A stretch of 64,000 nt of DNA, taken from assembly GCA_030650395.1 (NCBI GenBank), contig JAUSDY010000016.1, forward strand, positions 62,001-126,000, read 5' to 3'. The first letter of the stretch is position 1. Each line of letters opens with the position of its first letter. This stretch comes from Acidobacteriota bacterium. GTDB lineage: Bacteria > Acidobacteriota > Vicinamibacteria > Vicinamibacterales > UBA2999. A model generated the notes under the pieces. That model ran no database searches, was not told the DNA's origin, and saw only the letters and a program-made list of their open reading frames with translations. The position numbers and the translations under genes were made by a program. Positions 2,549 to 46,614 of the stretch are shown piece after piece.

Positions 2549-3052
2549 ATGCCCAGCCCGGTTGGCCACGCGCTCGGAGGAGCCATCGTCGGCTTTCTCC
2601 TGGAGCGTCGGCGCACTCCCCGCGCCGTCCCTCTTAGTGCTTTTGCCGTGGTGGCAATACTTCCCGACATCGATTTCCTGTGGGGCCGGCACAACATGGA
2701 GACGCACAGCCTCGGGGCCGCCGTCCTGGCGGGCCTCGCGATGCTGATGTGGACTCGAGGAAAAAACCCGCGCCTGGCCCTGGCGGTGACGCTGGCGTGG
2801 TCGACCCACGTTCTGTTCGACTGGCTGGGGTCCGACGACACGCCGCCGCTCGGCGTCATGGCATTCTGGCCGCTGACCTCGAAGTTCTATTTCGCGGATG
2901 CGTTTGTCTTCGAGGCGATCTCGCGGCGCTACTGGCTGTCGAACTTCGTGCCGCACAACGCCTGGGCGGTCGCGAAAGAGATCTTGATTCTCGGACCGAT
3001 CGTCGCGATCCTCTGGTTCAGAAAGGTTCGGAAGGGTTCTGAAAGGTTCTGA
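2549..3052 (+). CDS. DUF457/YdjM-type membrane-bound metal-dependent hydrolase
   Basis: 167 residues from ATG 2549; MPSPVGHALGGA is the typical family N-terminus, so the upstream in-frame ATGs are not used. Conserved acidic/His motifs are GHALGG, LPDIDFLWG, METHSLG and STHVLFDWLGSD, which match the YdjM/DUF457 pattern of predicted metal-dependent hydrolases in the inner membrane. Several hydrophobic helices lie between them. The substrate is unknown. The last residues (WFRKVRKGSERF) are encoded by the first units of the 10-mer mirror repeat at 3015-3114, so the repeat has grown into the 3' end of the gene. Confidence 0.8.
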   Translation: MPSPVGHALGGAIVGFLLERRRTPRAVPLSAFAVVAILPDIDFLWGRHNMETHSLGAAVLAGLAMLMWTRGKNPRLALAVTLAWSTHVLFDWLGSDDTPPLGVMAFWPLTSKFYFADAFVFEAISRRYWLSNFVPHNAWAVAKEILILGPIVAILWFRKVRKGSERF

Positions 3053-3114
3053 AAGGTTCTGAAAGGTTCGAACCCATCTGAACCACTCTGAACCCTTCAG
3101 AACCCTTCAGAACC
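3015..3114. repeat. Mirror-symmetric 10-mer array (10 units)
   Basis: Ten contiguous 10-bp units. Five run forward: GGTTCAGAAA, GGTTCGGAAG, then GGTTCTGAAA three times. A self-complementary unit GGTTCGAACC (3065-3074) follows. Four units then run as the reverse complement: CATCTGAACC, ACTCTGAACC and CTTCAGAACC twice. The whole 100 bp can fold as one long hairpin. It covers the 3' end of the plus-strand hydrolase gene and stops 4 bp before the stop codon of the convergent thiolase gene, so it may serve as a shared terminator. Confidence 0.95.
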
Positions 3115-4626: not shown

Positions 4627-4683
4627 GATCGGGGATCGGGGATCAGCGCATGCGCCGATCCCCGATCCCTGACCCCTGATCCC
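4627..4683. repeat. GATCGGG heptamer repeat with mirror half
   Basis: Two GATCGGG heptamers are followed by GATCA, a self-complementary GCGCATGCGC core, then CGATCCC twice and the variants TGACCCC and TGATCCC. It is another tandem repeat that turns into its own reverse complement. It fills the divergent intergenic space between the DciA-like gene and the FG-GAP gene. Confidence 0.85.
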
Positions 4684-4701
4684 GAGTACAGAAAGGTTCC
4701 T

Positions 4702-5877: not shown

Positions 5878-6464
5878 TTCTCGCGAGCCGATCGCCGCGC
5901 CGCGCTGAATTATTGAGCGCGGCCGGCTTCGTATTCGACGTGCACGCGGTGGAGATCGACGAGACGCCACGGCCCGGGGAGCCGGCTGCGGGGTACGTTG
6001 AGCGCCTCGCGATCGAAAAAGCGCAGGCAGCGTTCAAGGAGTTGATCGACAAACCTAAAGGTTTGTCGCCACAAGAAGGTTTGTCGCCAAAAGTTCTGTT
6101 CGTGTTGGGCGCCGACACCACCGTGGTGCTCGACGGCCGCATTCTCGGCAAGCCTGAGGATCGCGCCGACGCGATCGCCATGCTCAAGGCGCTCAGCGGC
6201 CGCGCGCACGACGTAATCACCGGCGTCGCCATCGTCAGCGCCGCCGGCGTCCGATCCGGCGTCGAACACACGCGCGTCTGGTTCGCCGCCGTTACAGACG
6301 AAGACATTCGCCAGTACGTCGACAGCGGCCAGCCCATGGATAAGGCCGGCGCCTATGGGATCCAGGGGCTTGCATCGCGTTTTATCCCGAGAATCGAAGG
6401 CTCGTACACCAACGTTGTTGGGTTGCCGGTGACGCTGGTCTCTAGTATCCTTAGAGGGGAGTAG
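5850..6464 (+). CDS. maf: Maf-like nucleoside-triphosphate pyrophosphatase
   Basis: 204 residues. Maf proteins hydrolyse non-canonical or modified NTPs (for example dTTP, UTP, m5UTP) to NMP plus PPi in the cytoplasm. Visible motifs are IILASRSPRRAELL (phosphate binding), VEIDETPRPGE, AIEKAQ, VLGADTTVVLDGRILGKP (catalytic Asp) and KAGAYGIQG. No ATG precedes the conserved N-terminus. The best start is GTG 5850 (VREPASKII), overlapping the FG-GAP gene by 28 nt; a rare start nearer IILA cannot be excluded. A palindromic element (6047-6088) is inserted in frame. It adds DKPKGLSPQEGLSP in the loop just before the GADT motif, at about residues 66-79, a site that should tolerate insertion. Confidence 0.9.
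   Translation: MVREPASKIILASRSPRRAELLSAAGFVFDVHAVEIDETPRPGEPAAGYVERLAIEKAQAAFKELIDKPKGLSPQEGLSPKVLFVLGADTTVVLDGRILGKPEDRADAIAMLKALSGRAHDVITGVAIVSAAGVRSGVEHTRVWFAAVTDEDIRQYVDSGQPMDKAGAYGIQGLASRFIPRIEGSYTNVVGLPVTLVSSILRGE
6047..6088. repeat. Family A palindrome in frame inside maf
   Basis: Perfect arm CGACAAACC, loop TAAA, arm GGTTTGTCG (6047-6068). The right half is then repeated after exactly 18 bp as GGTTTGTCGCC (6078-6088). Read in the Maf frame it gives DKPKGLSP followed by QEGLSP. The other forward frame, CGA CAA ACC TAA, would stop translation, so the frame used is an open one. Confidence 0.9.
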
Positions 6465-9391: not shown

Positions 9392-9996
9392 TGGCCCGGA
9401 CCGCAGCCGCGGACGACAAACCTAAAGGTTTGTCGCCACGTGAGGGTTTGTCGCCACGCGAAGGTTTGTCGCCACTTGAAGAACCGTTCCTGCGGCCCTG
9501 GCAGTTTTTCCTGCTCGGCGGCATGCTGGCCGCCACCGCCACAGTGATCGTCGCCACCGGGCAATCGCCGGCCAACATCATCATCCTCAGCCTGACCGTC
9601 GTCGCGGTGAGCTTCGTGGGCCTTGGCGCGTATCGCATGCTGGCCCCGCTGGTCCAGGCCGACGTCGAGACCCCAGCCTTGATCGGTGGCCGCACGCGTA
9701 TTGCGCTGGAGCGTGAGAAGGCGCTGGTGTTGCGCTCGCTCAAAGAGCTCGAGTTCGATTTTGCGATGGGGAAGATGTCGAAGGCCGACTTCGACGAGAT
9801 GGCTGGCCGGCTTCGCCGCCGCGCCGTCGGTTTGATGCGCCAGCTCGACGCCGGTGGCGGGTATCGCGAGCAAATCGAAAAGGAAGTGGCGAAGCGGCTC
9901 GGCCAACCACTCGTTGAAGGTTTGTCCGCTTGCGAATGCGGCACGACCAACGATCCCGACGCGCGGTTCTGCAAGTCCTGCGGAGCGAAGCTATGA
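9391..9996 (+). CDS. CcmI-like membrane protein with C-terminal zinc ribbon
   Basis: 201 residues. It begins at ATG 9391, overlapping the ccmF stop (TGATG). An N-terminal repeat-derived segment DKPKGLSPREGLSPREGLSPLE (written in pieces: DKPKGLSP, REGLSP, REGLSP) precedes two membrane helices. Next comes a charged helical region resembling the CcmI/DUF-type 'EREKALVLRSLKELEFD' arm, and last a four-Cys zinc ribbon CECGTTNDPDARFCKSCGAK. Position in the ccm operon suggests a role in apocytochrome handling. No experimentally studied homologue is known to me. The repeat peptide comes from the palindrome at 9414-9480. Confidence 0.7.
   Translation: MARTAAADDKPKGLSPREGLSPREGLSPLEEPFLRPWQFFLLGGMLAATATVIVATGQSPANIIILSLTVVAVSFVGLGAYRMLAPLVQADVETPALIGGRTRIALEREKALVLRSLKELEFDFAMGKMSKADFDEMAGRLRRRAVGLMRQLDAGGGYREQIEKEVAKRLGQPLVEGLSACECGTTNDPDARFCKSCGAKL
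9414..9480. repeat. Family A palindrome extended by 18-bp tandem units
   Basis: Perfect palindrome 9414-9435 (arms CGACAAACC/GGTTTGTCG, loop TAAA). From 9427 onward the right half is iterated as three exact-length 18-bp units, each starting GGTTTGTCGCCAC (9427-9444, 9445-9462, 9463-9480). Because 18 is a multiple of three, the expansion keeps the frame and yields GLSPRE, GLSPRE, GLSPLE. A lone half site, GGTTTGTCCGC, recurs near 9919 in the same gene. Confidence 0.92.
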
Positions 9997-11222
9997 GGCG
10001 GTCTGCTTTCTGCCTTCTGCCTTTTGCCTTTTGCCTTGTCACGGTGGCGCCGGCATTTGCGCAAGTCGCGATGCCCGATTCGAGCGCGATTGCCGGCACG
10101 CCGCTGCCCGCGCCAGAGCTTCCGGACCGAACGGTCATCGTGCGCGTGGTTCGCGAGCGCATGGGCAACAACATCGCCGGGCAGCCAGTGACGCTGCGTG
10201 TGGGCAACGCCACCCGCACCGCCACCACCGACGCGCAGGGCCGCGCGCAGTTCGACGGTCTGACCGCGGGCACGCTGGTGCAGGCCACGACCACGGTCGA
10301 CGGTGAGGTGCTCACGTCGCAGGAGTTTCCGGTTCCGGCACAAGGCGGCGTGCGCGTTGCGCTGATCGCCGGCATTCAAAAGGCGGCCGCCGCCGAGCAG
10401 GCCGCCGCCGCGGCCGGCGCCCGCGAACCGGCACGGCCCGGCGTGGTCGAGTTCGGCCCCGAGTCGCGCCTCATCCTCGAGTTCCAGGACGACAACCTGA
10501 CGTTGTTCTACATTCTCGAAGTGATCAACAATGCGCGCACGCCAATCGACATCGGCGGCCCGCTGATTCTCGAGCTGCCGACCGGCGCCTCCGGAGCGGT
10601 GATGCTGGAGGGCTCGTCGCCGCAGGCCAGCGTACTGGCCGCGCGGGTCACCATCACCGGGCCGTTTCCGCCTGGCAAGCTGGTAGCGCAAGTCGGCTTC
10701 TCACTGCCCAACGCAGGTTCGGATCTCGTGCTGACGCAGAAATGGCCGGCGGCGTTTTCGCAGATTTTCATCGCCGCCGAGAAGATCGGGCCGATGCAGA
10801 TGTCGTCGTCGCAGTTGACCGACGTTCGCGAGACACAAACCGAGGGCGGTGTGTTCATCATGGGAACCGGCGGCCGCATCGAGCCGGGTGGCACCTTGAC
10901 GGTAAACCTCACGGGCATGCCCGCCGCAAGCCACACGGCCCGTAACGCCGCTCTCGCGATCGTGGTGCTGATTCTCGGCATCGGGTTGTGGCTGGCGTTA
11001 ACGCCGGGCTCGGCCAGGGCCGCGCAGGAGGGCCGGCTGGCCGGCAAACGCGAGCGGCTGATGGGCGACATCGTGACCCTCGAGCGCAAGCGCCGCACGC
11101 GCGCACTGACCGAAGCCGAACAAGCGCGCCTGCAGCGGCTCACCGCCGATCTCGAGCGCGTGCTGGCGTCACTCGATCAGGCCCCGGCGTCACGAGACGA
11201 GGGCGTCCACCTCCGCGCGTGA
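9993..11222 (+). CDS. Secreted membrane-anchored protein in the ccm operon, unknown function
   Basis: 409 residues from ATG 9993 (ATGA overlap with the previous stop). It has a signal peptide whose hydrophobic core FCLLPFAFCL is encoded by four heptamers. A carboxypeptidase-regulatory-like beta domain follows (TVIVRVVRERMGNNIAGQPVTLRV...GRAQFDGLTAG), then an Ala-rich linker and a beta-rich domain. One membrane helix (ALAIVVLILGIGLWLAL) and a cytoplasmic coiled coil (LERKRRTRALTEAEQARLQRL) complete it. Its place between the zinc-ribbon gene and ccmA suggests a part in cytochrome maturation or assembly. I do not recognise a named family. Confidence 0.6.
   Translation: MRRSAFCLLPFAFCLVTVAPAFAQVAMPDSSAIAGTPLPAPELPDRTVIVRVVRERMGNNIAGQPVTLRVGNATRTATTDAQGRAQFDGLTAGTLVQATTTVDGEVLTSQEFPVPAQGGVRVALIAGIQKAAAAEQAAAAAGAREPARPGVVEFGPESRLILEFQDDNLTLFYILEVINNARTPIDIGGPLILELPTGASGAVMLEGSSPQASVLAARVTITGPFPPGKLVAQVGFSLPNAGSDLVLTQKWPAAFSQIFIAAEKIGPMQMSSSQLTDVRETQTEGGVFIMGTGGRIEPGGTLTVNLTGMPAASHTARNAALAIVVLILGIGLWLALTPGSARAAQEGRLAGKRERLMGDIVTLERKRRTRALTEAEQARLQRLTADLERVLASLDQAPASRDEGVHLRA
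10008..10035. repeat. Four heptamers (TTCTGCC/TTTTGCC) in a signal peptide
   Basis: TTCTGCC twice followed by TTTTGCC twice, contiguous. Read on the minus strand this is the GGCAGAA family also present at 12734-12761 between ccmB and ccmC. Here the repeat is coding and supplies the Phe/Leu/Cys-rich core of the signal peptide of the gene starting at 9993. Confidence 0.9.
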
Positions 11223-11245: not shown

Positions 11246-12052
11246 ATGAACAGCGATTTTGAACGCCTGGCCGTCGTCGATGTCGCGCGGCACTACGGCC
11301 GGCGCAAGGCGCTCTCCCAAATCAATTTCACCTGTGCGAGCGGAGAGATCGTCGGCCTGCTCGGACCGAACGGCGCGGGCAAGTCGACCCTCCTGAATAT
11401 TCTCGCCACATTGCTTGCGCCATCGATCGGCCGCGTCGAGTACGGCGAACGAACGGTGGCCGACGGCGGCGCCGAGGTGCGTGCCCGCATCGGCATGCTC
11501 GGTCACGATCTGTTCCTGTATCCGGAGCTGACGGCCCGGGAAAACCTCTCGTTCTTCGCGCAGTTGTATGGCCTGAGCGACATCCCAACGATTGTGCGCG
11601 CCGCGCTCGAACGTGCCGGCCTCGCCGATCGAGGTGACGACTTCGTGTCGGGTTTTTCGCGCGGCATGCGGCAGCGAGTGGCGCTCGAACGGGCGCTGCT
11701 GCATGAGCCGCGCCTGATCCTGCTCGACGAGCCTTTCACCGGTCTCGATCAAGCGTCGGCGTCTGCACTGGTCGCCCGCCTGCGGGAGCGCCAGCGCGCC
11801 GGCTGCATGGTGGTCGTGGCGACGCACGACCTCGACGTCGCCGACGGGTTGTTGACGCGCGCCATCTACTTGAAGAACGGCCGCATCGTCGGCACCGATA
11901 CCGACAGCCGCGGCCTGGCCGATCGCTACCGGCGGGCCATTAACAACTCAGGTGGCGACAAACCTTTCTTGTCCGCCGACTTGTCCGCCGAAGCGCTTCG
12001 CGCGAAGGTGGAAGCGCCTGGCGCGAAGGTGGAAGGTTTGTCGAAATCATGA
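11246..12052 (+). CDS. ccmA: CcmA, ATP-binding subunit of the heme-related ABC transporter
   Basis: 268 residues. The ABC ATPase motifs are Walker A GLLGPNGAGKSTLL, Q-loop region MLGHDLFLYPELT, signature VSGFSRGMRQRVALERAL, Walker B LILLDEPFTGLD and the H-loop VATHDLDV. With CcmB and CcmC it releases holo-CcmE from CcmC using ATP. The start is ATG 11246, 23 nt after the previous stop. The last 33 residues (from GGDKPFLSADLS to VEGLSKS) are not part of the normal domain. They come from a split palindromic repeat at 11951-12043. The stop overlaps ccmB by ATGA. Confidence 0.93.
   Translation: MNSDFERLAVVDVARHYGRRKALSQINFTCASGEIVGLLGPNGAGKSTLLNILATLLAPSIGRVEYGERTVADGGAEVRARIGMLGHDLFLYPELTARENLSFFAQLYGLSDIPTIVRAALERAGLADRGDDFVSGFSRGMRQRVALERALLHEPRLILLDEPFTGLDQASASALVARLRERQRAGCMVVVATHDLDVADGLLTRAIYLKNGRIVGTDTDSRGLADRYRRAINNSGGDKPFLSADLSAEALRAKVEAPGAKVEGLSKS
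11951..12043. repeat. Split family A element with nested repeats
   Basis: The outer halves GGTGGCGACAAACCTT (11951-11966) and AAGGTTTGTCG (12033-12043) are the two arms of the family A palindrome pulled apart by 66 bp. The insert contains CTTGTCCGCCGA twice and GGCGCGAAGGTGG-like units twice. All of it is translated as the C-terminal tail of CcmA, so it looks like repeats inserted within a repeat. Confidence 0.8.
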
Positions 12053-12732: not shown

Positions 12733-12733
12733 C

Positions 12734-12761
12734 GAAAGGCAGAAGGCAGAAGGCAGAAGAA
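12734..12761. repeat. Heptamer repeat GAAAGGC/AGAAGGC between ccmB and ccmC
   Basis: GAAAGGC, AGAAGGC, AGAAGGC, AGAAGAA: four units of 7 bp. They begin directly after the ccmB stop and lie 25 nt before the ccmC ATG. The repeat is the reverse complement of the TTCTGCC repeat at 10008-10035 in the same operon. Confidence 0.88.
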
Positions 12762-12785
12762 CGGCATAGAATTCAAGACGCAGCA

Positions 12786-13708: not shown

Positions 13709-13857
13709 TGGAGATCGGCGTCCCGACCGCCGCGCATTTCATCTTCATCCCGGCCGTGCTGATTATCGGCCTCGTGATTGGATGGATCCTCGGGTCGCGC
13801 GCCGCGCAAGATGCGATGGCGATGGAGATGAAGCGACGCGACGAGCGCCGGAAGTAG
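13708..13857 (+). CDS. Small single-helix membrane protein, last ccm operon gene
   Basis: 49 residues, MEIGVPTAAHFIFIPAVLIIGLVIGWILGSRAAQ... (one hydrophobic helix with GxxxGxxxG-type small residues and a charged tail). It starts at ATG 13708, overlapping the ccmD-like stop, so translation is probably coupled. The family is not recognised; it may be an additional CcmD-type accessory subunit. Confidence 0.6.
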   Translation: MEIGVPTAAHFIFIPAVLIIGLVIGWILGSRAAQDAMAMEMKRRDERRK

Positions 13858-13902
13858 CGCCTCTTTTCTTTGGCAGTTTATCTTCGTATTCATTAGCCTG
13901 TG

Positions 13903-14131
13903 CGCCAGCGCGAATGAGCATCTCCCGGCGTTCGCGCGCCCGGCGTCAGGGCATGAATGCTCTGCGAGAGGGCTCTCGCTCGGCGGTCAAATCTCCCTCG
14001 GCGCATTAATCGCTTTAGCGATGGACGTCTAAATCCGCACGGCGCCTGCATGGCCTCCGGTCGATTTGACGAGGAATTCTTGTGGTCGCCTCGCTCCCGC
14101 ACCCGCCGGGAGATGCTCATTCGCGCTGGCG
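13903..14131. mobile_element. MITE-like element, copy 1 (229 bp, perfect 28-bp TIRs)
   Basis: Bases 13903-13930 (CGCCAGCGCGAATGAGCATC...) are the exact reverse complement of 14104-14131, giving 28-bp perfect terminal inverted repeats. The interior aligns base for base, in inverted orientation, with the element at 14537-14767. It also contains a TTTA-loop hairpin ATCGC/GCGAT at 14009-14022. There is no transposase, and no clear target-site duplication was seen. Confidence 0.88.
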
Positions 14132-14210
14132 GCGCGGCCGACCGTTGCAATGTCCCGCGGATAGTGAAGTTGTCCGACCGGGCAATTTGCCCGCTCGTCA
14201 AAAGAATGTC

Positions 14211-14536
14211 ATGAAGCGCGCGAAGTCACTGTCGATCAATTTGCTCGTAGGACTCGCCTTCGGCTGTCACCAGACAGTGCCGAACAAACTTACCGAAGAT
14301 ATCTGGACCCTTGAAATCGCGATGGTTCTCGCTCAACCAGACGCTGCTCTTGATCGGGTATGGTTTATCGTTCGGAATGTTTCAGACCATGCTCGTCTAG
14401 CTTGCGTTCAGCCGTCTTGGTCCGTCACGCGAGGGGATGGTTCACCATTCAGGATGACGCCGGGCCCATACCGCACCTGGCAGCTGTGAGGAGATCGACG
14501 AGTTTCGCCTTGTGTTGCCTGCTCAAACAATGCCGC
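14211..14536 (+). pseudogene. Degraded small lipoprotein gene between two MITE-like elements
   Basis: An ATG at 14211 opens a 92-residue frame with a lipobox-like start (LSINLLVGLAFGC) and mixed-charge sequence (TEDIWTLEIAMVLAQP, WFIVRNVSDHARLAC), ending at TGA 14487-14489. One base out of frame, the reading continues as CEEIDEFRLVLPAQTMP until the second element begins at 14537. This suggests a frameshifted and truncated gene. It is distinctly less GC-rich than its surroundings. The family is not recognised; it could also be a short intact lipoprotein. Confidence 0.45.
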
Positions 14537-14767
14537 GGCCTGCGTGAAGAAGCGTTTCACGGCGTGAGCTGGAGCGAGGCGACGACAAGCATCAGATCGT
14601 CAAATCGACTGGAGACTACGCAGGCGCCGTGCCGTCTTTGGCGCGTCCATCGCTGGGGCGATTAATGCGGCTAAGGAGATTTGACCGCCGAGCGAGAGCC
14701 CTATGGCGGGGCTTTTCGACCTGTCGCCGGGCGTGCGAACGCCGGGAAATGCTTCTTCGCGCAGGCC
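14537..14767. mobile_element. MITE-like element, copy 2 (231 bp), inverted to copy 1
   Basis: Terminal inverted repeats at 14537-14564 and 14740-14767 match at 25 of 28 positions. The interior (for example TCAAATCGACTGGAG, GCAGGCGCCGTGC, GATTAATGCG, GAGATTTGACCGCCGAGCGAGAGCCC) aligns with the reverse complement of copy 1. The copies have diverged, so this is not a recent duplication. It appears to have cut off the end of the lipoprotein frame on its left. Confidence 0.85.
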
Positions 14768-14798
14768 TCACCAGTCTGCAAAACATTTGGGTCAGACC

Positions 14799-15542
14799 TT
14801 AGCGCCCGAGCGCGAGGCGTTGCGCCAATACTTCAGGAAGTCCTTCAGACAGGATCCGCGCCTGTGCCTCGGCGATCGGATACTCAACCCGGTAGATCGT
14901 AACCTCGCGCGTGGCGGTGTCGACCGTTGCGAACCCGGCGCGCGGGTCGCCATCCCGCGGCTGGCCCACCGACCCCGGATTAATCAGGTAACGGTTGTTG
15001 TCCTCGATCGACATCGTCAGCGGCCGCTCGTCATCGGCCGTCGCGAGGCCGAATTGTTCTTTCGACAGGTAATGTCCCACCTGCACGTGGGTGTGCCCGA
15101 ACAGGCATACGGGGCGCCGGGCGGAGTGCATGGCCCTCAGCGCGTCCAGGTCATCGAACACGTAGGCGTCTTCGTCGAACGGCGTGCCGTGGCAGATCTC
15201 GATGAGGTCGTCGACCACCATCGGCCCGGCGGGTAGCGACGCGAGCCAGTCGCGATTCTCAGGGGACAGTCGATCGTAGGTCCAGCGGATGGCGCTGCGT
15301 GCCACGGCGTTGAAGCCCTCGGGGCTTTCGATGCCCGAGCCGACCTTGTCGTGGTTGCCCCGGATGAGCGCGTGCGGCGCCAACGCGCGGACGCGCTCGC
15401 AAATCGCATTCGGATCCGCGCCGTAGCCGACGAGGTCGCCGAGCACCAGCACCTTCTCGCAGCCAAGCGGCGCCGCTGCGGCCATGACCGTCTCATAGGC
15501 CTCGAGATTGGCGTGAATGTCGCTAATAACCAGGTAACGCAT
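14799..15542 (-). CDS. Calcineurin-like metallophosphoesterase
   Basis: 247 residues. The dimetal phosphoesterase motifs are in order: ISDIHANLEA (D-x-H), LGDLVGYGADP (GD), IRGNHDK (GNHD), ICHGTP and FGHTHVQ (GHTH), then NPGSVGQPRDGDPRA typical of YfcE/MJ0936-like enzymes. The substrate is unknown (phosphodiesterase). It starts at ATG 15542, overlapping the aroK stop, and is the last gene of an aroA-aroK-phosphoesterase operon. Confidence 0.9.
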   Translation of the reverse strand: MRYLVISDIHANLEAYETVMAAAAPLGCEKVLVLGDLVGYGADPNAICERVRALAPHALIRGNHDKVGSGIESPEGFNAVARSAIRWTYDRLSPENRDWLASLPAGPMVVDDLIEICHGTPFDEDAYVFDDLDALRAMHSARRPVCLFGHTHVQVGHYLSKEQFGLATADDERPLTMSIEDNNRYLINPGSVGQPRDGDPRAGFATVDTATREVTIYRVEYPIAEAQARILSEGLPEVLAQRLALGR

Positions 15543-17510: not shown

Positions 17511-17954
17511 ATGATTCCACCCCACACGATTCGCCTCGAATTCAATAGCGCGTTCGACATGCTCGATTTCGTGCAGGTCGTCAGCGATCATCTTGGCCAG
17601 ATGGCGGGGCTCGACGAAGACCAGCTGCACTGGGTGAGCGTGGCGGTGCGCGAGTCGGTGGTCAACGCCATCAAGCATGGCAACAAGAACGATCAAACCA
17701 AGCGCGTGATCGTCGAGTTCAGCCCGGTGCCGCCGGCCAACGCCGACGAGATCATCATCCGCATCGAAGACCAGGGCGAAGGGTTCGTGCCCGAAGAAGT
17801 GGCCGACCCGCTCGCGCCCGAAAACATTCTCAAGTCGAGCGGCCGCGGGATTTTCCTCATCCGCAACTTCATGGACGAAACGGTGCTGAAAAAAGTGCCG
17901 GGCGGCATGGAGATCAAGATAACGAAGAAGATACCCAAGGGCTTAAGGGCTTGA
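17511..17954 (+). CDS. RsbW/SpoIIAB-like anti-sigma serine kinase
   Basis: 147 residues forming a GHKL (HATPase_c_2) domain: N-box RESVVNAIKHGNKND, G1 DQGEGFVPEE and G2 SGRGIFLIRNFMDE. Such proteins bind and inhibit a sigma factor, or phosphorylate an anti-sigma-factor antagonist, in partner-switching control. No sigma factor or antagonist gene lies beside it. There is no clear Shine-Dalgarno. The C-terminal residues PKGLRA and the stop come from an AAGGGCTT 8-mer repeat (17937-17960). Confidence 0.88.
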   Translation: MIPPHTIRLEFNSAFDMLDFVQVVSDHLGQMAGLDEDQLHWVSVAVRESVVNAIKHGNKNDQTKRVIVEFSPVPPANADEIIIRIEDQGEGFVPEEVADPLAPENILKSSGRGIFLIRNFMDETVLKKVPGGMEIKITKKIPKGLRA

Positions 17955-17960
17955 GGGCTT
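17937..17960. repeat. Three AAGGGCTT 8-mers at the 3' end of the anti-sigma gene
   Basis: AAGGGCTT, AAGGGCTT, GAGGGCTT, contiguous. The first two encode the last residues and the stop TGA falls within the third. The repeat thus defines the C-terminus of the protein. Confidence 0.85.
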
Positions 17961-20307: not shown

Positions 20308-21279
20308 ATGACACCCGAGCTCTCGATCGTCATCCCCGTCCATAACGAATCGCCCAACATCAAGTCGCTCTATGACGAGCTGACCCAGACGTTGGGCCAG
20401 TACGGGCGCAGCTACGAGCTGCTGATCGTGGACGACGGCAGCACGGATGACTCGTTCGAGCAGCTCGCGGCGCTGCAGGCCCGCGACCCGCGGCTGCGCG
20501 TGATCCGCTTCCGCCGCAACTTCGGGCAGACCGCCGCGTTTGCCGCCGGCTTCGCGCACGCGCGCGGGCGCCTGGTCGTGACCTCCGACGGCGACCTGCA
20601 GAACGATCCGCGCGACATTCCCGCCATGGTGGCGCTCATCGAGCAGGGCCACGACATCGTGTGCGGCTGGCGTAAAGACCGCAAAGACACCTTCGTGACC
20701 CGGCGCGTGCCTTCCGTGCTGGCCAACAAGCTGATCTCGTGGGCGACCGGTGTGCCCCTGCACGACTACGGCTGCTCGCTCAAGGTGTTCCGCGCCGAAG
20801 TGGTGAAGCCGCTGCGGCTCTACGGCGAGATGCATCGCTTCCTGCCGGCGATCGCGAGCCAGATGGGCGTCAGCATCGCCGAGCTCGTGGTCAATCACCG
20901 GCCCCGCCGCGCCGGAGCCACCAAGTACGGCTTGTCGCGGACGATCCGCGTCGTGCTCGATCTGGCGACGGTCAAGTTCCTGCTGAGCTACTCGACGCGC
21001 CCGCTGCAGATCTTCGGGCTGATTGGCCTCATCGCCGGCGGCCTTGGCGTGCTCATCACGGGCTGGCTCGGCTACATCCGCCTGTTCCAGCACCAGGGCA
21101 TCGCCGATCGGCCGCTGCTGCTGCTCGGCGTGATGCTGGTGTTTATCGGCGTACAGCTGCTCACGTTCGGCCTGCTCGCCGAGGTGATGGCGCGCACCTA
21201 TTACGAATCGCAGAACAAGACCACCTACGTGATCCGCGAGGTGCGTGAGGCCACCGATCTCGCCGCGGTTGGCCGCTGA
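20308..21279 (+). CDS. Polyprenyl-phosphate glycosyltransferase (GT2, DPM1/GtrB-like)
   Basis: 323 residues. The GT2 catalytic domain has ELSIVIPVHNESPNIKSLY, LLIVDDGSTDDSF, TSDGDLQNDP (metal-binding DxD type) and GATKYGLSRT. Two C-terminal membrane helices follow (IFGLIGLIAGGLGVLITGW and PLLLLGVMLVFIGVQLLTFGLL). Members transfer a sugar from UDP- or GDP-sugar to undecaprenyl or dolichyl phosphate, supplying lipid-linked sugars to GT-C enzymes. The stop TGA overlaps the next ATG. Confidence 0.9.
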   Translation: MTPELSIVIPVHNESPNIKSLYDELTQTLGQYGRSYELLIVDDGSTDDSFEQLAALQARDPRLRVIRFRRNFGQTAAFAAGFAHARGRLVVTSDGDLQNDPRDIPAMVALIEQGHDIVCGWRKDRKDTFVTRRVPSVLANKLISWATGVPLHDYGCSLKVFRAEVVKPLRLYGEMHRFLPAIASQMGVSIAELVVNHRPRRAGATKYGLSRTIRVVLDLATVKFLLSYSTRPLQIFGLIGLIAGGLGVLITGWLGYIRLFQHQGIADRPLLLLGVMLVFIGVQLLTFGLLAEVMARTYYESQNKTTYVIREVREATDLAAVGR

Positions 21280-22046
21280 TGACGGCACGCCCCCCGCGCG
21301 AGCACGATCCGCGGATCACCGTCATCCAGCAGGAACTGTTCGACGAGCGCCGCTCGAAGGCCGACAAGTACCGCGACCTGTTCGTCGGCCGTCCTGGCTG
21401 GTGGGCGCTCGTCAAGTACGAGCTCGCCGTCGTGCTCGCGAGCTGGGTGCCCGGCGCCATCGGCTTCGTTCTGCGCACGCGGCTCTACCCGCTGGTGCTC
21501 GGCTCGGTCGGCAGAAACGTCATCTTCGGCGTCAACGTCACGCTGCGCCATCCTCATAAGATCCACATCGGCGATAACGTCGTCATCGACGACCTCTGTT
21601 GCCTCGATGCGAAGGGCACCGACAACAAGGGCCTGTCGATCGGCAACGGCGTGTTCGTCGGGCGCAACACCATCCTGAGCTGCAAGAACGGCGACATCAT
21701 CATCGAGGACCGCGCGAACATCGGGTTCAACTGCGAGATCTTCTCGGCGTCGCGGGTGCGCGTCGGCAAGGACATCCTGATGGCCGCCTACACCTACCTG
21801 GTGGGCGGCGATCATCTCTACGACCGCGTCGACATTGCCGTGCTGCAGCAGGGCCGCACCGCGCGCGGCATCGACGTCGGTGACGGCGCCTGGCTGGGTG
21901 CGCACGTCGTGGTCACCGATGGCTCGACCATCGGCCGCGACGCCATCATCGGCGCCGGCGCGGTTGTCGTCGGCGATATCCCGGAGTTTGCGATCGCGGC
22001 CGGAATACCGGCCAAGGTGATGCGGGATCGACGGGCCAATAATTAA
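21279..22046 (+). CDS. Left-handed beta-helix acyltransferase
   Basis: 255 residues with hexapeptide repeats: IHIGDNVVIDDLCC, LSIGNGVFVGRNTIL, IIIEDRANIGFNCEI, VRVGKDILMAAYTY, IDVGDGAWLGAHVVV and IGAGAVVVGDIPEF. These form the LbH fold of sugar O-acetyltransferases (WbbJ/LpxA superfamily); the catalytic His may be in GGDHLY. It probably acetylates a surface-glycan sugar. It is translationally coupled to the GT2 gene upstream. The last codons AATAAT-TAA belong to the CCAATAA heptamer repeat. Confidence 0.88.
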   Translation: MTARPPREHDPRITVIQQELFDERRSKADKYRDLFVGRPGWWALVKYELAVVLASWVPGAIGFVLRTRLYPLVLGSVGRNVIFGVNVTLRHPHKIHIGDNVVIDDLCCLDAKGTDNKGLSIGNGVFVGRNTILSCKNGDIIIEDRANIGFNCEIFSASRVRVGKDILMAAYTYLVGGDHLYDRVDIAVLQQGRTARGIDVGDGAWLGAHVVVTDGSTIGRDAIIGAGAVVVGDIPEFAIAAGIPAKVMRDRRANN

Positions 22047-22070
22047 TAACCAATAACCAATTACCAATAA
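22036..22070. repeat. Five CCAATAA-type heptamers between acyltransferase and asnB
   Basis: CCAATAA, TTAATAA, CCAATAA, CCAATTA, CCAATAA: 35 bp, perfectly phased at 7. The first units contain the stop codon of the upstream gene and the array ends three bp before the asnB ATG. The reverse-complement family TTGGTTA occurs at 38626-38653. Confidence 0.93.
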
Positions 22071-22073
22071 CGA

Positions 22074-23960
22074 ATGTGTGGGATCGTCGGCATCGTCGAG
22101 CGTGATCTGAATCGGCCGGTGCTGGCCGACGATCTCGCGCGAATGGTGAGGACGCTGCACCATCGCGGTCCCGACGAAGAGGGCAGCATTACGCTCAACG
22201 GCGTCGGCCTCGGCATGCGCCGCCTCGCCATTGTCGACCTCGCGTCGGGGCAGCAGCCGATCCTCAATGAGGCCGGCGACATCAAGGTCGTTGCCAACGG
22301 CGAGATCTACAACTTCCAGGAGCTGCGCCAGGAGCTGGAAGGCCACGGCCACGTCTTCCGCTCCCGCGCCTCGGACATCGAGGTGCTGGTGCACGCCTAC
22401 GAGCAGTGGGGTGAGGATTTCCTGCCGAAGCTGCGCGGGATGTTCGCGCTGGCCCTGTGGGACGGCCGCACTCGCACGCTGATCGCGGCGCGCGATCGGG
22501 CAGGCGAGAAGCCCTTGTACTGGACTGAGACCCCGCGCGGGCTGCTGCTCGCTTCGGAGGTGAAGGCGCTGCTGGTCCGGCCGGAGGTGTCGCGCGAGCT
22601 CGATCCGGTCGCGCTCGATCAATTCCTGACCTACGAGTACATTCTCGCGCCGCTCACGATCCTGAAGGGTGTTCACAAGATTCCGCCGGCGCATTTCCTG
22701 CGCTACCGCGACGGCGAGGTCTCGGTCCATCGCTATTGGGATGCCGCGGACATACCCCTTCGGGAGTGGCGGGACGAAGAGGCGGCCGAGGCCCTGAAGG
22801 CGGCGCTACGCAAAGCGGTGAGCCGCCAGCTGATGGCCGACGTGCCGCTTGGCGCGCTTCTCTCCGGTGGCATCGACTCCAGCTCGATCGTCGCGTTCAT
22901 GAGCGAGGCGGCTGCCCAACCGGTCAATAGCTTCAGCATCGGATTCTCGGACGGCAGCTACAACGAGCTGCCGTATGCGCGCGAAGTTGCGGCCCTCTTC
23001 AAGACCAACCATCGCGAGCGGTCGGTGTCGCCCGATCTCGGCGACCTCTTCGAGCGCCTCGTCGTCCACCTCGACGAACCATTCGCCGACGTCTCGCTGT
23101 TTCCGACGTTCAGCGTTTCGGAGCTGGCGCGCGAGCACGTCAAAGTGGTGCTGTCAGGCGACGGCGGCGACGAGCTGTTCGGCGGATACGACGCCTACCA
23201 GGCGCAGGCCCTTGCCGCGCGCCTCGGCTGGCTGGGCGAGGCGCTCATCCCGGCCATCGCCGGAGTCGCCGCGGCCCTGCCGCCCACCGAGAAGAAGAAG
23301 GGGCTGGTGAACAAGGTCAAGCGCTTCAGCGCCGGCGCCGCCACCGCTCCGGCCGACCTCGGCCACTATCGGTGGATGGTGTATCTCGGCTCGCGAGCGA
23401 AGGCGCGTCTCTACAACGGGGGACTGCGCGACGCGCTCCGCAGCCACGATGTCTACGCGCCGGTGCGCGACGCGCTCGCGCGCTTCGGCCAGGACGATGT
23501 GTTGAATCGGCAGTTGTACGCGGACCTCAGTCTCTACCTGGCCGACGACATCCTGGTGAAGGTCGATCGCATGAGCATGGCGACGTCGCTCGAGACGCGC
23601 GCGCCGTTTCTCGACGGCGATCTGATGGAGCTGGCGTTCTCGATGCCCGGCCACTTGAAGATCAGGAACGGCGAGCGCAAGTGGATCCTCAAGCAGGCGA
23701 TGCGCGGCGTGCTGCCCGAGTCGATCCTGTCGCGGCGGAAGGAAGGCTTCAGCATCCCGATGAAGAACTGGCTGCGGCGTGAGCTGGCGCCGCTGATGCG
23801 GGATCTCCTATCGGTCGAGCGCGTGGCCAGGCGCGGGCTGTTCGATTCCAAGGAAGTGGCGGCGCTTGTCGCCGCGCACGTCTCAGGCCGAGAGAATCAC
23901 GCGCATACGCTCTTCCCGTTGATGGTGTTCGAGCGTTGGGCGACGGAGCATCTCTTGTAG
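22074..23960 (+). CDS. asnB: Asparagine synthase (glutamine-hydrolysing)
   Basis: 628 residues. The N-terminal Ntn amidotransferase domain begins with MCGIVGIV, so Cys2 is the nucleophile after Met removal. It has LHHRGPDEEG, RLAIVDLASGQQP and NGEIYNFQEL. The synthetase domain has the PP-loop LLSGGIDSSSIVAF and SGDGGDELFGGY. In exopolysaccharide loci such enzymes may amidate sugars rather than aspartate, and this one lies in a glycan cluster. The start is unambiguous because of the MCG. Only a heptamer repeat precedes it, with no Shine-Dalgarno. Confidence 0.95.
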   Translation: MCGIVGIVERDLNRPVLADDLARMVRTLHHRGPDEEGSITLNGVGLGMRRLAIVDLASGQQPILNEAGDIKVVANGEIYNFQELRQELEGHGHVFRSRASDIEVLVHAYEQWGEDFLPKLRGMFALALWDGRTRTLIAARDRAGEKPLYWTETPRGLLLASEVKALLVRPEVSRELDPVALDQFLTYEYILAPLTILKGVHKIPPAHFLRYRDGEVSVHRYWDAADIPLREWRDEEAAEALKAALRKAVSRQLMADVPLGALLSGGIDSSSIVAFMSEAAAQPVNSFSIGFSDGSYNELPYAREVAALFKTNHRERSVSPDLGDLFERLVVHLDEPFADVSLFPTFSVSELAREHVKVVLSGDGGDELFGGYDAYQAQALAARLGWLGEALIPAIAGVAAALPPTEKKKGLVNKVKRFSAGAATAPADLGHYRWMVYLGSRAKARLYNGGLRDALRSHDVYAPVRDALARFGQDDVLNRQLYADLSLYLADDILVKVDRMSMATSLETRAPFLDGDLMELAFSMPGHLKIRNGERKWILKQAMRGVLPESILSRRKEGFSIPMKNWLRRELAPLMRDLLSVERVARRGLFDSKEVAALVAAHVSGRENHAHTLFPLMVFERWATEHLL

Positions 23961-23988
23961 TTGAGAGTGCAGAGTTAAGAGTTAAGAG
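23961..23988. repeat. Four heptamers ending in TTAAGAG after asnB
   Basis: TTGAGAG, TGCAGAG, TTAAGAG, TTAAGAG start on the base after the asnB stop codon. Each is 7 bp. This lies between convergent genes, just before the SWIB-gene terminator. Confidence 0.88.
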
Positions 23989-23992
23989 CCGT

Positions 23993-24025
23993 ACAAAAGA
24001 AAAGGCGCACGGTTTCCCGTGCGCC
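23993..24025 (-). terminator. Intrinsic terminator of the SWIB-domain gene
   Basis: On the minus strand the stem GGCGCACGG pairs with CCGTGCGCC (24025-24017 with 24012-24004) around a four-base loop. A T-rich tract TTTTCTTTTGT follows. It is 20 bp after the stop of the 24046-24333 gene and is the clearest one-directional intrinsic terminator in the window. Confidence 0.9.
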
Positions 24026-24045
24026 CGTGATCGCCGAAGCTATCG

Positions 24046-37621: not shown

Positions 37622-38554
37622 ATGAACTACAGAAATCTTGTTCGAACTGCCGCTTTTGCGGCTTTGTGCGCTGTCACTCTGGCCGCCTGCGAAGGTGGGA
37701 TGGCCTCGCCCGTTTCGCCTTCGGCCGTGACGAGCCTGGGCGGCGCGCTGAACGCCGACGGCTCCACCATGAAGACGACCGCGCCTAATGGCGTCTTCCC
37801 GCTGGCCGACGCGACCAACGTGCCGGTGGTGGCGATCCTTACCGTCCAGGGGGCACGCGGCGTCCACCTGATCACGACGTTCGCCCATCGCTTCCAGGTC
37901 GCCGACTCCGACAGTTTCGGCACCATCCTCTCGACCGGTATGGGCGCGATCGATCCGCAGGGTCTGATCCGCTTCACCACCGATTCGCTGCCCGCCGCCA
38001 AGAAGGTGTTCTGGCGCAGCCGCGCGGAAAGCGACGACAAGTTTGGCCCGTGGTCGCCGGTGATGGCGTTCACCACCGTCGGCGCCGCGCCGCCGGCCGG
38101 GCCGTCGACGCCGATCATCGGCAACGCGCCGCCCGCCGGGCCGCGTCCGGCCGATCCGCCTGCGGGCAGTCGACTACCGCTGCCCGACGCGCGGCCGTTC
38201 ATCAACCAGGCCCAGGGACGCCTCGGCTCGCTCGCGTCGTGCCCGAACGGCCGCAAGTACGAGAACAACCCGTGGCTCGATGCCCTGGTCGATGCGCTTC
38301 GTGCCGACAATTCGCGCTGGGGTTATAACGGCAAGCCGACCCGCTCGGCCGCCGACAACAGCGGCTTCCCGGTGATCGCGGCCGGCGACGAGCTCGCCTA
38401 TCACTACGGCGCGGGTCCGAGCTTGAACTCGCGCGACGTCTACCTGATCGACGCCCTCGCCGGCCACTGCGGCGACAACCCGAGCACGACCTATCGGGAC
38501 TTCACCGGTGAAGAGCAAGGCTTCTGGACCGGCGCCGGCCGGTTCTCGCAGTAG
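37622..38554 (+). CDS. Lipoprotein with conserved RWGYN...GHCG domain, paralogue 1
   Basis: 310 residues. The lipoprotein signal ends at AVTLAAC. An Ig/FN3-like domain follows (about residues 60-155), then a Pro/Ala-rich hinge and a C-terminal domain of about 120 residues: DPPAGSRLPLPD, WLDALVDALRADNSRWGYNGK, YHYGAGPSLNSRDVYLIDALAGHCGDNPS. The same C-terminal domain occurs in the lipoproteins at 40340-41242 and 45394-46614. This copy has a CPNG Cys rather than the SCQ motif of the others. I do not recognise the domain. It is likely displayed on the cell surface near glycan machinery. Confidence 0.7.
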   Translation: MNYRNLVRTAAFAALCAVTLAACEGGMASPVSPSAVTSLGGALNADGSTMKTTAPNGVFPLADATNVPVVAILTVQGARGVHLITTFAHRFQVADSDSFGTILSTGMGAIDPQGLIRFTTDSLPAAKKVFWRSRAESDDKFGPWSPVMAFTTVGAAPPAGPSTPIIGNAPPAGPRPADPPAGSRLPLPDARPFINQAQGRLGSLASCPNGRKYENNPWLDALVDALRADNSRWGYNGKPTRSAADNSGFPVIAAGDELAYHYGAGPSLNSRDVYLIDALAGHCGDNPSTTYRDFTGEEQGFWTGAGRFSQ

Positions 38555-38577
38555 TCATCCGCTAGTCGACATGGCAA

Positions 38578-38611
38578 GAAAAAAGGCAGGTCATCGCGAC
38601 CTGCCTTTTTT
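38578..38611. terminator. Bidirectional intrinsic terminator
   Basis: Stem GGCAGGTC (38585-38592) and GACCTGCC (38598-38605) with a 5-nt loop. An A-tract lies before it and a T-tract after (TTTTTT, 38606-38611), so it can work in both directions. It lies between the convergent lipoprotein and membrane-protein genes. Confidence 0.92.
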
Positions 38612-38625
38612 GGTCCGGCCAATCT

Positions 38626-38653
38626 TTGGTTATTCGTAATTGGTTATTGGTTA
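38626..38653. repeat. TTGGTTA heptamer repeat at a gene 3' end
   Basis: TTGGTTA, TTCGTAA, TTGGTTA, TTGGTTA: four 7-bp units, the reverse complement of the CCAATAA family at 22036-22070. The minus-strand membrane-protein gene ends within it. Its last codons AAT AAC CAA and the stop TAA are repeat sequence. Confidence 0.9.
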
Positions 38654-40260
38654 TTTTCTTCCGTCCGCCTGCCGTAAGCGAACAGCCCGATCAAGAAGAA
38701 CGGGTAGAACCAATTCACGTAGACGCCGGTGCCGTGAATCTTCGACAGCTGCGCCACGATCGCGAGGGCGCCGGTGATGAGCGCGAGCTGCTGCGGCGTC
38801 GTCTTTCGTGCCACGAAGAACGTCGCCGCCGCAAAACCAATGGTCATCAGGAACATCGGGCTGGTGGTGAACTCGCCTTTGACGAACGGCTCGCGAAAGA
38901 AAGCCCGGATATCGTCGCGCTGCCCCCAGAAGCCGTAGGTGCTGAGGCCATAGGTATCGGTGCCCTGGTGATGTCCTACGGTCTCGCGCACGACGGTGCT
39001 GAGCAAACTGCGCCCTTCAATCGCTTGCGAAAGCGCGAGCACGGGCCCGCCGATCAGCACGGCGGCGATCGCGACGCCCGCGAGGAAGCGCAGCGCCGAC
39101 GGCCGCCGGTCCCAGTAATGTCCCAGCCACGCGGGGAAGAACAGCACCGGATAAAACACGGTGGCCGCGCTGGCCACCAGCAGCAAACCGGTGGTGAGCG
39201 GACGCGAGTACGAGAGCGCCGCAAAGGCGACGAGCGACACGGCCGCTGGCGCGATGTGCGAAATGAACGTGATGCCGCCGATCATCTCGCGCGGACCGCC
39301 GACGCCCATCACGTAGGCGCTGCCGCAGTAGAGCGCGGCGAGTCCCCACGCCACCTGCGGGCCCGCAAGACGCCGCCCGAGCGCGACGAGGGCGACGACA
39401 CCCAGCAGGTGAAATGTGACCGTCGCCAACTGGCTCGCCAGCAGCGGCGGCAGGTGGTACTGCGCGCCGGCGCCGAGATCCGCCCTCGAGTAGTCGCCGC
39501 GGTTGAGCGGCTCGGGATTCAGCAGGAACTGGAACGGCAAATGCGCAAGGTACAGAACCGGACCGTAGCCCGCGCCTGCGCTGTTGGTGAGCAGCGGATC
39601 GCCGTACGGCATCCGTCCGCGCTCGCGAAGCCGCTGCGCCCCTAAATTCGTATAGAACCCCGCATCGTCTGGCGGTGTGACCATGCCGATGAATACGTCG
39701 AGGCTGAAGAGCACCACTGTCAGCATGACGAGGGCGCGAACGGGGAGATTCGGCCGCCACGCGTCGGCAGCGCCGCGCCGAACTCTCCAGAGGGCGATAC
39801 TCACAAGGAACAGGTTGATCGCCATGATCGCGCGGTAGACGTAATCCATCACCCAGAAGTAGGTCGGATCGGTCAGCAAATCGAAGAACCGCATGATGTT
39901 GAAGAGCAGGAATCCGATCGCCATCAGCGCCAGGAACACGGCGTTCCGCAGGCTCAACGGGCGCGAATAGTCGAAGGCGACCACGAGCGCGACAATCAGC
40001 GCGATCCACAGCGCGCCGGCCTGGGTCGGCAGCATCGTGTGCCGGAAGCCGGCGCCCGGTGCACCCTTCAAGTCGGACCACACGGTGGATAGCACCTGAC
40101 CAACGCCCGGGTTGGGCGGTGGCGGCTCGAAGATGGTGTTGTGCAGATGTCGAGGGGTGAGCAGATCGCGCTCGGGAGAGGCGAAGTGAACGGCGAGAGC
40201 GGTGCCGACGATCAGAACGAGAAACGCACAACCAAGAGCAACGAGAGACTTTCGATCCAC
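38644..40260 (-). CDS. Polytopic membrane protein, GT87/DUF2029-like
   Basis: 538 residues with 11 or more hydrophobic helices. The first is FLVLIVGTALAVHFA, and a loop TPPDDAGFYTNLGAQRLRERGRMPYGDP resembles the donor/acceptor loop of GT87/ArnT-type enzymes with its acidic residues. No further motif was recognised. It is a likely polyprenyl-sugar-dependent membrane glycosyltransferase. The C-terminal NNQ comes from the heptamer repeat. It shares the region with the lipoprotein paralogue upstream on the same strand, separated by a palindrome (40283-40312). Confidence 0.65.
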   Translation of the reverse strand: MDRKSLVALGCAFLVLIVGTALAVHFASPERDLLTPRHLHNTIFEPPPPNPGVGQVLSTVWSDLKGAPGAGFRHTMLPTQAGALWIALIVALVVAFDYSRPLSLRNAVFLALMAIGFLLFNIMRFFDLLTDPTYFWVMDYVYRAIMAINLFLVSIALWRVRRGAADAWRPNLPVRALVMLTVVLFSLDVFIGMVTPPDDAGFYTNLGAQRLRERGRMPYGDPLLTNSAGAGYGPVLYLAHLPFQFLLNPEPLNRGDYSRADLGAGAQYHLPPLLASQLATVTFHLLGVVALVALGRRLAGPQVAWGLAALYCGSAYVMGVGGPREMIGGITFISHIAPAAVSLVAFAALSYSRPLTTGLLLVASAATVFYPVLFFPAWLGHYWDRRPSALRFLAGVAIAAVLIGGPVLALSQAIEGRSLLSTVVRETVGHHQGTDTYGLSTYGFWGQRDDIRAFFREPFVKGEFTTSPMFLMTIGFAAATFFVARKTTPQQLALITGALAIVAQLSKIHGTGVYVNWFYPFFLIGLFAYGRRTEENNQ

Positions 40261-45393: not shown

Positions 45394-46614
45394 CTAGAAC
45401 CGTCCGCGCGAGATCCACCGGCCAATCGTGCCGGAGTTGATGGTCACGTCCGTCACATCGCCCCAGCTAGGTGAGGGGGTCGCACCGCAATGCCCGCCAA
45501 CGACGTCGATGATGTAAACGTCGGTGCTGTTCTGGTCGGGTCCACCGCCGTAGTGATAGTCGACCACGTCCTTCGACGGATCGTTCGCGTTGCCGCGCTT
45601 GCCGTTGTAACCCCACCGCGTGTCGTAGGTCCGCAGCGTATCCACTACCTGGTCCATGAACTGCCAGCTGCCGCCTTGGTCCTGGCAGGAGTTCTGGAGG
45701 GCGCCGGGGTTGGCCTGGGCCACGGCCGCGACGATATGAGACATGTTCGGCAGAGGCAATCTGCCGCCGGACGGATCGGCCGCGCGGCCGCCATTGCCCT
45801 TGGGCACGCCCCCGGGGACGCCGCCACCACCACCAGGAGGAGGCACCACCACCGGCGGCGGACTGGTCCTGAAGGCCAGTGTCTGCGAATGCCCAGACTG
45901 CTTGGTACCGTCGGTACCGTAGACGCGCCAGTACAGCACGGTGTTGTACGGCAGCTCGCCGAGCGTCATCGACGTGTTGCCGTCGCCGCCGGGCGAGGCG
46001 GTCACAACCGCCATGGCCGGGGACATCTCGGCGTTGTTGGAGACCTCGAAGCGATACACGACACCGGTCGTGCCGGAGATCGCGCCGTTACGCGCTTTGA
46101 AGGTCGGCTTGTTGGTGGTGAGGTTGCCGCTCGGCTCGACGGCCACGGGCGCCTCGATCACCACGGGCACGACCACGGTGAAGTTGGAGACGGCGGAGTA
46201 GGGGCCGGTATTGGCGCCGTCTGCCGCGCGCGTGCGCCAGTAGTAGGTGAAGCCCGCGCCGAGGGGTTCGGGCAGCCGGTACGCCGTGCGGCCGTTTGGA
46301 CCGGGTTCGATTCTGTCGGCCTGATGGACGATCTGCTGGAAGTTCGAGTCCGCCGCCATCTCGAGCTGCAGCCAGATCGCTCGCTGCCCGGATGAGCCGG
46401 GGTTTTCGATCAGCAGCGTGTACGGATCCGACGACGCCACCAGCGTGGCGCCTGCGCCAGGCTCGAGGGGCTTGGGAGCGGTGATTGAAACCCCCGGAAT
46501 GGGGCCGGCTACCGTGGGCGCGGTCGGATTGGCGCTCTCAGCGAACTCGCAACCAGCCAGGCAAACTATTGCAAGGAGAGCACTTAGCCAACGGTACGGG
46601 TAAAATCTGGACAT
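45394..46614 (-). CDS. Lipoprotein with conserved RWGYN...GHCG domain, paralogue 3
   Basis: 406 residues. The lipoprotein signal LSALLAIVCLAGC is followed by two FN3-like domains (for example AGFTYYWRTRAADGANTGPYSAVSNFTV and VLYWRVYGTDGTKQSGHSQTLAF), each about 95 residues. A Gly/Pro-rich hinge leads to the shared C-terminal domain: SGGRLPLPNMSHIV, NSCQDQGGSWQFMDQVVDTL, DTRWGYNGKRGN, DYHYGGGPDQNSTDVYIIDVVGGHCG and PSWGDVTDVTI. It has one more Ig-like domain than its two paralogues. It starts at ATG 46614, with GTG 46617 just upstream. Function unknown. Confidence 0.72.
   Translation of the reverse strand: MSRFYPYRWLSALLAIVCLAGCEFAESANPTAPTVAGPIPGVSITAPKPLEPGAGATLVASSDPYTLLIENPGSSGQRAIWLQLEMAADSNFQQIVHQADRIEPGPNGRTAYRLPEPLGAGFTYYWRTRAADGANTGPYSAVSNFTVVVPVVIEAPVAVEPSGNLTTNKPTFKARNGAISGTTGVVYRFEVSNNAEMSPAMAVVTASPGGDGNTSMTLGELPYNTVLYWRVYGTDGTKQSGHSQTLAFRTSPPPVVVPPPGGGGGVPGGVPKGNGGRAADPSGGRLPLPNMSHIVAAVAQANPGALQNSCQDQGGSWQFMDQVVDTLRTYDTRWGYNGKRGNANDPSKDVVDYHYGGGPDQNSTDVYIIDVVGGHCGATPSPSWGDVTDVTINSGTIGRWISRGRF

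Follow-up and report, generated by a model that had tools for sequence, protein, structure and literature searches.

The window analyzed here is a stretch of 64,000 nt (C171:62001-126000) from the genome of a member of the Vicinamibacterales (Acidobacteriota; 5.41 Mb, 180 contigs, 65% GC), in which repeat tracts were located with Tandem Repeats Finder (TRF) and by direct reading. An acyltransferase-like gene coding for 255 amino acids (21279-22046, plus strand) is followed by an asnB-like gene (MCGIVGIVERD..., 22074-23960, plus strand), and the whole junction between the two is an array of CCAATAA-family heptamers, identified both by TRF and by reading (22036-22075, plus strand). The last codons of the acyltransferase-like gene lie within this array, which provides the stop codon TAA of that gene (22044-22046) and reaches the asnB start at 22074. 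Behind the asnB stop, an array of the GAGTTAA family (read as AGTTAAG; 23959-23988, plus strand) separates the stop codon from a terminator-like hairpin, GTACAAAAGAAAAGGCGCACGG...CCGTGCGCC (23990-24026, plus strand), which is outside the array and is kept in the four congeners aligned there. A further CCAATAA-family array is present on the minus strand at 38626-38655 (TTGGTTA, i.e., minus-strand CCAATAA), at the 3′ end of a minus-strand gene (38644-40035); the convergent plus-strand gene nearby has its own, separate terminator-like hairpin.

Several other heptamer tracts were found in the window. These included a GGCAGAA-family insertion at 12733-12769 (plus strand; array core AAGGCAG at 12736-12759), a TTCTGCC array (TCTGCCT, the minus strand of the GGCAGAA family) at 10002-10037 (plus strand) inside the coding region of a gene at 9993-11222, an AAACTTG-type array at 46891-46929 (plus strand) in the intergenic region 46440-46989, and a GGGGATC-type inverted pair at 4627-4684, composed of GATCGGG (4627-4644) and CCGATCC (4655-4683). 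Units of other lengths were represented by an array of the 8-mer AAGGGCTT at the 3′ end of the gene 17511-17954 (17937-17960, plus strand), an array of the 8-mer CAGGAGAC that precedes an inverted arm and follows the stop codon of a gene ending at 62796 (62798-62842), a 10-mer inverted pair, GGTTCTGAAA and GAACCCTTCA (3015/3070; 3015-3114), and a 13-mer inverted pair, GGTTCCACACGAG and GAACCTCCGTGAG, at a codirectional junction (53391/53451; 53391-53522). Predicted hairpins of the 7-mer, 10-mer and 13-mer pairs had z scores of −4.9, −7.0 and −3.9, respectively.

The heptamer tracts named in an earlier note on this DNA lie at, or a few bases from, the positions given there. Its 8-mers were recovered as arrays at 17937 and 62798; TRF did not call the one placed at 17472, which has only two copies. 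The inverted pairs at 4627/4655, 3015/3070 and 53391/53451 and the coding nature of the 10002 tract go beyond that note.

Two additional types of repeats were observed within genes. Repeats of 18 nt (AAGGTTTGTCGCCA...; 6058-6093 and 9425-9481) are read in frame: they fall within coding regions or open them, encode the peptides KGLSPQ EGLSPK and KGLSPR EGLSPR, and lie next to the palindrome GACAAACCTAAAGGTTTGTC. Coding tandem repeats with periods of 12 and 21, both multiples of three, occupy 11968-12035 and are apparently unrelated to the junction arrays.

Repeat families and their placement in the genome

We analyzed a sample of 1.18 Mb of the same genome, taken in stretches (approximately 22% of the genome), in which 981 genes were called with a simple codon model (87% coding, with approximate starts), leaving 148 kb of intergenic DNA. 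This intergenic DNA contained 108 period-7 arrays, compared to 0.4 expected from order-3 Markov shuffles; thus, chance and base composition were rejected as their source, and the genome-wide lag-7 excess anticipated by the earlier note is present. Peaks were also seen at multiples of 7, and counts were 40 at lag 8, 42 at lag 9, 25 at lag 13 and 43 at lag 18 (an excess to which the 18-nt repeats at 6058 and 9425 belong), with 0-4 intergenic arrays each at lags 2-6 and 11. In a set of 124 period-7 arrays, 102 were intergenic, 10 were at gene edges and 12 were intragenic. An assembly artifact was also rejected, as arrays are found in the interior of contigs as long as 240 kb and turn up again in assemblies made independently.

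Period-7 arrays reduce to a few dispersed unit families that are shared by unrelated junctions: CCAATAA (family A), GGCAGAA/GGCAAAA (family B), AGTTGAA (family C), GAGTTAA/GAGTTCA/GAGTGCA (family D), and the GATCTCA and GGGATCA types (family E). Non-heptamer units include the 8-mers AAGGGCTT and CAGGAGAT, the 10-mers GGTTCTGAAA and the 13-mers GGTTCCACACGAG. Tracts of the families first noticed in the window do exist elsewhere, with 48 exact sites of CCAATAACCAATWA and 234 sites of GGCARAAGGCARAAGGC genome-wide (reversed control, 0). Family A is nearly private to this genome, which has 40 exact CCAATWACCAATWACC sites versus none in eight congeners; the remaining 296 genomes of the acidobacterial sample contributed four single CCAATAA sites. 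Family B (GGCARAA) occurs at high copy in two congeners as well and was positive in 19 of 297 genomes, reaching high copy in scattered distant families (237 sites in G291, 105 in G083 and 75 in G264; reversed control approximately 0). Architecture is similar in these distant genomes; for example, TGAAGGCAGAAGGCAGAAGG... in G291 is a stop codon followed by an array with an inverted partner. Congeners that have neither family A nor family B carry their own heptamers or 8-mers.

The share of junctions with an array was 34% for convergent, 18% for codirectional and 11% for divergent gene pairs, and arrays between divergent genes partly reflect starts that were called too short, three of them reading as N-terminal peptides. 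At codirectional junctions, the median distance was 2 nt from the stop codon to the array and 42 nt from the array to the next start. When such junctions were at least 90 nt long, the array began within 10 nt of the stop in 38 of 52 (13 expected under uniform placement) and was nearer to the stop than to the start in 47 of 52. Stop codons, and not start codons as the earlier note had also suggested, are thus the rule; its central description, of phased heptamer families at the gene junctions of an acidobacterium that overlap stop codons, was borne out. Family A arrays started before the annotated stop in 15 of 28 cases, including that at 22036. Of 80 arrays lying no more than 15 nt from a stop, 71 had the plus strand of their family in the mRNA (binomial p = 4e-13). 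Stop-adjacent arrays of other genomes were purine-rich in the sense strand in 44 of 52 cases, whatever the unit; this rule is not absolute, since some relatives have units that are C-rich in sense (AAGCCCC).

Inverted pairs were present at 40 of the 134 array-bearing junctions, and those that were folded gave strong predicted hairpins (z from −3.9 to −12). The tracts at 22036, 12736 and 23959 are single-arm and predicted to be unstructured. A role of the arrays as intrinsic terminators was rejected, given that the 22036 tract is predicted to be unstructured and that a terminator-like hairpin distinct from the array follows the 23959 tract. Covariation between arms beyond family similarity was absent in this genome (match of 46.3 to a locus's own arm versus 48.0 to other loci of the family); because own arms are no better matched than those of other loci, selection for the hairpin is not supported here. 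In G291 (L171-L175), unlike in the window's genome, GGCAGAA hairpins look near-perfect, with variant units mirrored in both arms at at least two of five loci as judged by eye.

The 10002 tract is part of a protein. Its gene starts at 9993 rather than at a later start, and the resulting N-terminus, MRRSAFCLLPFAFCLVTVAPAFAQ, resembles a signal peptide, with the TTCTGCC array supplying its hydrophobic core. As a 7-nt unit without stops, this array yields the same heptapeptide cycle, FCLLPSA, in all frames. Among the orthologs, a heptamer-like core (LCFALCLLPFAFAEAQ) recurs in G005 and is missing from G001, G002 and G007. Similar N-termini were found at C11:33292 and C48:161879.

Syntenic junctions in related genomes

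Judged from syntenic junctions in congeners (approximately 75-85% DNA identity), the arrays are recent, clean and species-specific insertions. At 12732, four congeners read ...ATGACGGAG TAGAATT..., and this genome alone has a GGCAGAA insert of 37 nt between these two parts, with the old TAG stop kept downstream and no visible target-site duplication. The 23960 junction contains AAGTTAA repeats in G005 and unrelated sequence in other congeners. At C37:33442, a stop/start overlap, CTGTAATGG, is present in G006 and G007; the two codons are separated by CCAATAA repeats in G000 and by GGCAGAA in G005. The junction at C11:13679 is occupied by a GGCAGAA pair in G000, eight CAGGGAT units in G005, a CAGGAGGT pair in G007, a hairpin of CCACGAAG-like words in G001 and a REP-like hairpin in G006. 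For the acyltransferase-asnB junction (22036), we compared acidobacterial MAGs carrying this gene pair, including Vicinamibacterales and Luteitalea. A period-7 or period-8 array was present in 12 of 16 relatives (the junction being short or degenerate in the rest), with units that included GGCAGAA, AAGCCCC, AAGCCGC, GGGACCC, GGGAGCC, GAGCCCC, CTAGCCG and AGCTGAK, in addition to 8-mers.

Co-occupied slots exceeded chance: 21 pairs were found among 40 comparable junctions, compared to 9.9 ± 2.6 expected (p = 0.0005). Scarcity of insert-tolerant junctions in compact operons may explain part of this sharing. Units differed in 19 of the 21 pairs under a one-mismatch rule, although a few of the 19 are related words, such as CGGGAGT/CGGGAAC or the two TTCTGCC-type units at 71996, and this somewhat reduces the share of pairs whose families are genuinely distinct. 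When G001 was probed with 38100-40200, the orthologous junction was not found.

Two further observations were made in the syntenic alignments. Hairpins starting with GTAG, such as GTAGCGTCCGGCTTTAGCCGGACC and GTAGCGCGGAACTTTAGTTCCGCG, fill the same stop-codon slots in congeners, at the 5877 junction in G002 and G007 (L194, L195) and at the 23960 junction in G001 (L191), and look like GTAG-tagged REPs. In addition, the 941 bp between convergent genes at 13857-14799, which hold no confident gene here and correspond to 8-77 bp in four congeners, probably represent an insertion or a lost gene.

Permuting the first five units lowered the pairwise similarity between loci (z of 10.5, 4.5, 5.5 and 3.6 for families A, B, C and D, respectively), and the string AATAACCAATAACCAATTACCAATAAC recurs at many loci. 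A unit order common to different loci implies that multi-unit blocks share descent, which argues that arrays spread as blocks rather than by independent slippage.

Origin of the arrays

A role as functional regulatory sites under selection, for example as terminators, mRNA-stability hairpins or sites for RNA-binding proteins, would agree with the strand polarity, the adjacency to stop codons and the strong predicted hairpins of paired arrays. However, congeners have different sequences in place of one another at a given site, no structure is predicted for the 22036 tract, the conserved terminator-like hairpin at 23990 is a separate one and arms do not covary, and we regard this explanation as a rather doubtful one. 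DNA-uptake signals of Neisseria and Haemophilus are also species-specific words that form inverted pairs behind genes, and uptake sequences with species dialects could therefore resemble the arrays; yet coding DNA shows no enrichment of single units, with an observed/expected ratio of approximately 1 for most families and slightly above 1 just where arrays overlap gene ends, making such signals very improbable here. The arrays could also be ordinary SSRs, each grown in place by polymerase slippage with 7 nt as the favored slip length. The peak at 7-9 nt and locally homogeneous arrays, such as the more than ten copies of GAGTTAA at C137:54090, fit this idea, which agrees with the slippage origin that Mrazek proposed for heptamers (quoted in PMC4679880 and PMC4692102). 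Slippage accounts for length but not for dispersal: units are common to unrelated junctions across the genome, their irregular order is kept between loci and clean insertions hold a unit that is absent from the ancestral junction. In-place growth is, in our view, an unlikely origin.

Movement of non-autonomous, REP/REPIN-like elements by a Y1 (RAYT-like) or other transposase would explain dispersed, extragenic, species-specific repeats with inverted pairs, and Y1_Tnp genes were detected in 19 of 20 genomes; REP-like hairpins starting with GTAG do use the same slots in congeners. On the other hand, none of the 19 Y1_Tnp genes examined, Y1 being the transposase family screened, had an array within 1.5 kb, these genes were equally present in genomes without GGCARAA, the 12732 insertion shows no target-site duplication, and single-arm arrays vary in length and are devoid of a tag, all of which makes this mode of mobility quite unlikely. 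A reverse transcriptase (telomerase-, retron- or DGR-like) copying an RNA template into repeats of fixed length could, in principle, combine a constant period with a changing sequence if the template were short. RVT_1 had no match in G001 (91% complete) or G005 (100%), both rich in GGCARAA arrays, at a profile-HMM sensitivity at which a very divergent reverse transcriptase could be missed; this largely refutes RNA templating, and its probability appears to be minimal.

The reading that we prefer, with about even confidence, is that the tracts are several families of short dispersed elements, built of phased 7- or 8-nt units, that are copied, reuse the same slots and are constrained at the RNA level. 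Within one genome, multi-unit blocks are common to each family. Each copy fits precisely into the interval from a stop codon to the following functional element, with the plus strand, usually purine-rich, in the mRNA. The family filling a given junction differs from species to species, such that the place is kept and the sequence is swapped. We infer that copies are made by replication-linked template switching, a copy-and-paste process in which existing arrays serve as donors, and that 7-nt slippage would then make the arrays longer or shorter. The slots that tolerate an insert would be the junctions that follow stop codons. The strand rule may reflect a constraint on the 3′-UTR, such as avoidance of C-rich, unstructured stretches that load Rho, or preservation of mRNA ends and re-initiation. 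Paired copies would add an intercistronic hairpin, as REPs do, and the single tract at 22036 may act just as an unstructured spacer that gives the upstream gene its stop codon. Occasionally, a copy could be taken over into a coding region, of which the predicted signal peptide at 10002 would be an example.

Purifying selection acting on insertions in compact operons can, however, account in part for both the placement and the slot reuse, a point against the preferred reading. A bolder version, which we consider improbable, is that an undescribed strand-aware copying process keeps filling gaps behind stop codons with phased repeats of 7-8 nt, whose words are replaced as species diverge and sometimes give rise to a new signal peptide; words would then recur in distant families through sequence preference or horizontal movement. 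Heptamer repeats have been seen in scattered bacteria for decades and their origin has not been explained. As one genus offers many syntenic slots that are empty, occupied or differently occupied, gain, polarity and replacement become directly readable. The arrays also suggest a concrete route by which repeats may become secretion signals and reset gene ends.

Comparison with known repeat systems

A literature search found no heptamer repeats of Acidobacteriota. The earlier note had likened the tracts to cyanobacterial STRRs, which Mazel et al. (1990) reportedly described as tandem heptamers dispersed in intergenic DNA. CCAATAA would be one base off STRR2, with TTGGTCA as its unit. The likeness holds for tandem, intergenic heptamers, but membership in the STRR class, which belongs to a different phylum, is not supported: heptamers of Nostoc are often intragenic, with few inverted pairs and no preference for the sense strand (PMC4692102), whereas the arrays described here are nearly all intergenic, often paired, strand-polar and placed at stop codons.

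Direct repeats of TAACTGA, sporadic over distant lineages in Beggiatoaceae, Cyanobacteria and Bacteroidetes, share with our arrays a heptameric, intergenic nature, stop codons in the forward unit (in all frames for TAACTGA) and downstream genes often without a Shine-Dalgarno sequence (MacGregor 2015, PMC4679880). In BOGUAY, however, a single unit is found by start codons with almost no inverted pairs (PMC4679880), and the arrays in the present study have many units and lie by stop codons. REPs and REPINs are similarly dispersed, extragenic and species-specific, occurring as singlets and inverted doublets that form hairpins behind genes; in contrast, the arrays have neither a GTAG tag nor a RAYT neighbor, and each of their arms is a tandem array whose length varies.

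Of the known systems, the Xanthomonas GGGAATC class matches best, better than cyanobacterial STRRs. Described as GGGAATC and GGGGA(C/T)T repeats of Xanthomonas and Nostoc, these heptamers are dispersed and mostly intergenic, are found on the coding strand no further than 50 nt from stop codons, in some cases overlapping the stop, can have an inverted partner upstream of the next ORF, and are rare between divergent genes (Rehm et al. 2015, PMC4692102). The same pattern of intergenic location, stop-codon placement, strand polarity and single arrays or inverted pairs was observed here, and the GATCGGG array at 4627 is itself of the GGGNATC type. Several differences were also evident. A G-rich, quadruplex-capable unit is limited to the GGGATC-type family, and quadruplexes are not expected for CCAATAA, AGTTGAA and GAGTTAA, which lack G-tracts. 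Units mostly differ between co-occupied slots, where the Xanthomonas class would lead one to expect a shared repeat type in sister species, and 8-, 9-, 10-, 13- and 18-mers accompany the heptamers. What is new here is the number of unrelated families in one genome, the substitution of one unit for another at slots that stay fixed across sister species, and recruitment into coding sequence.
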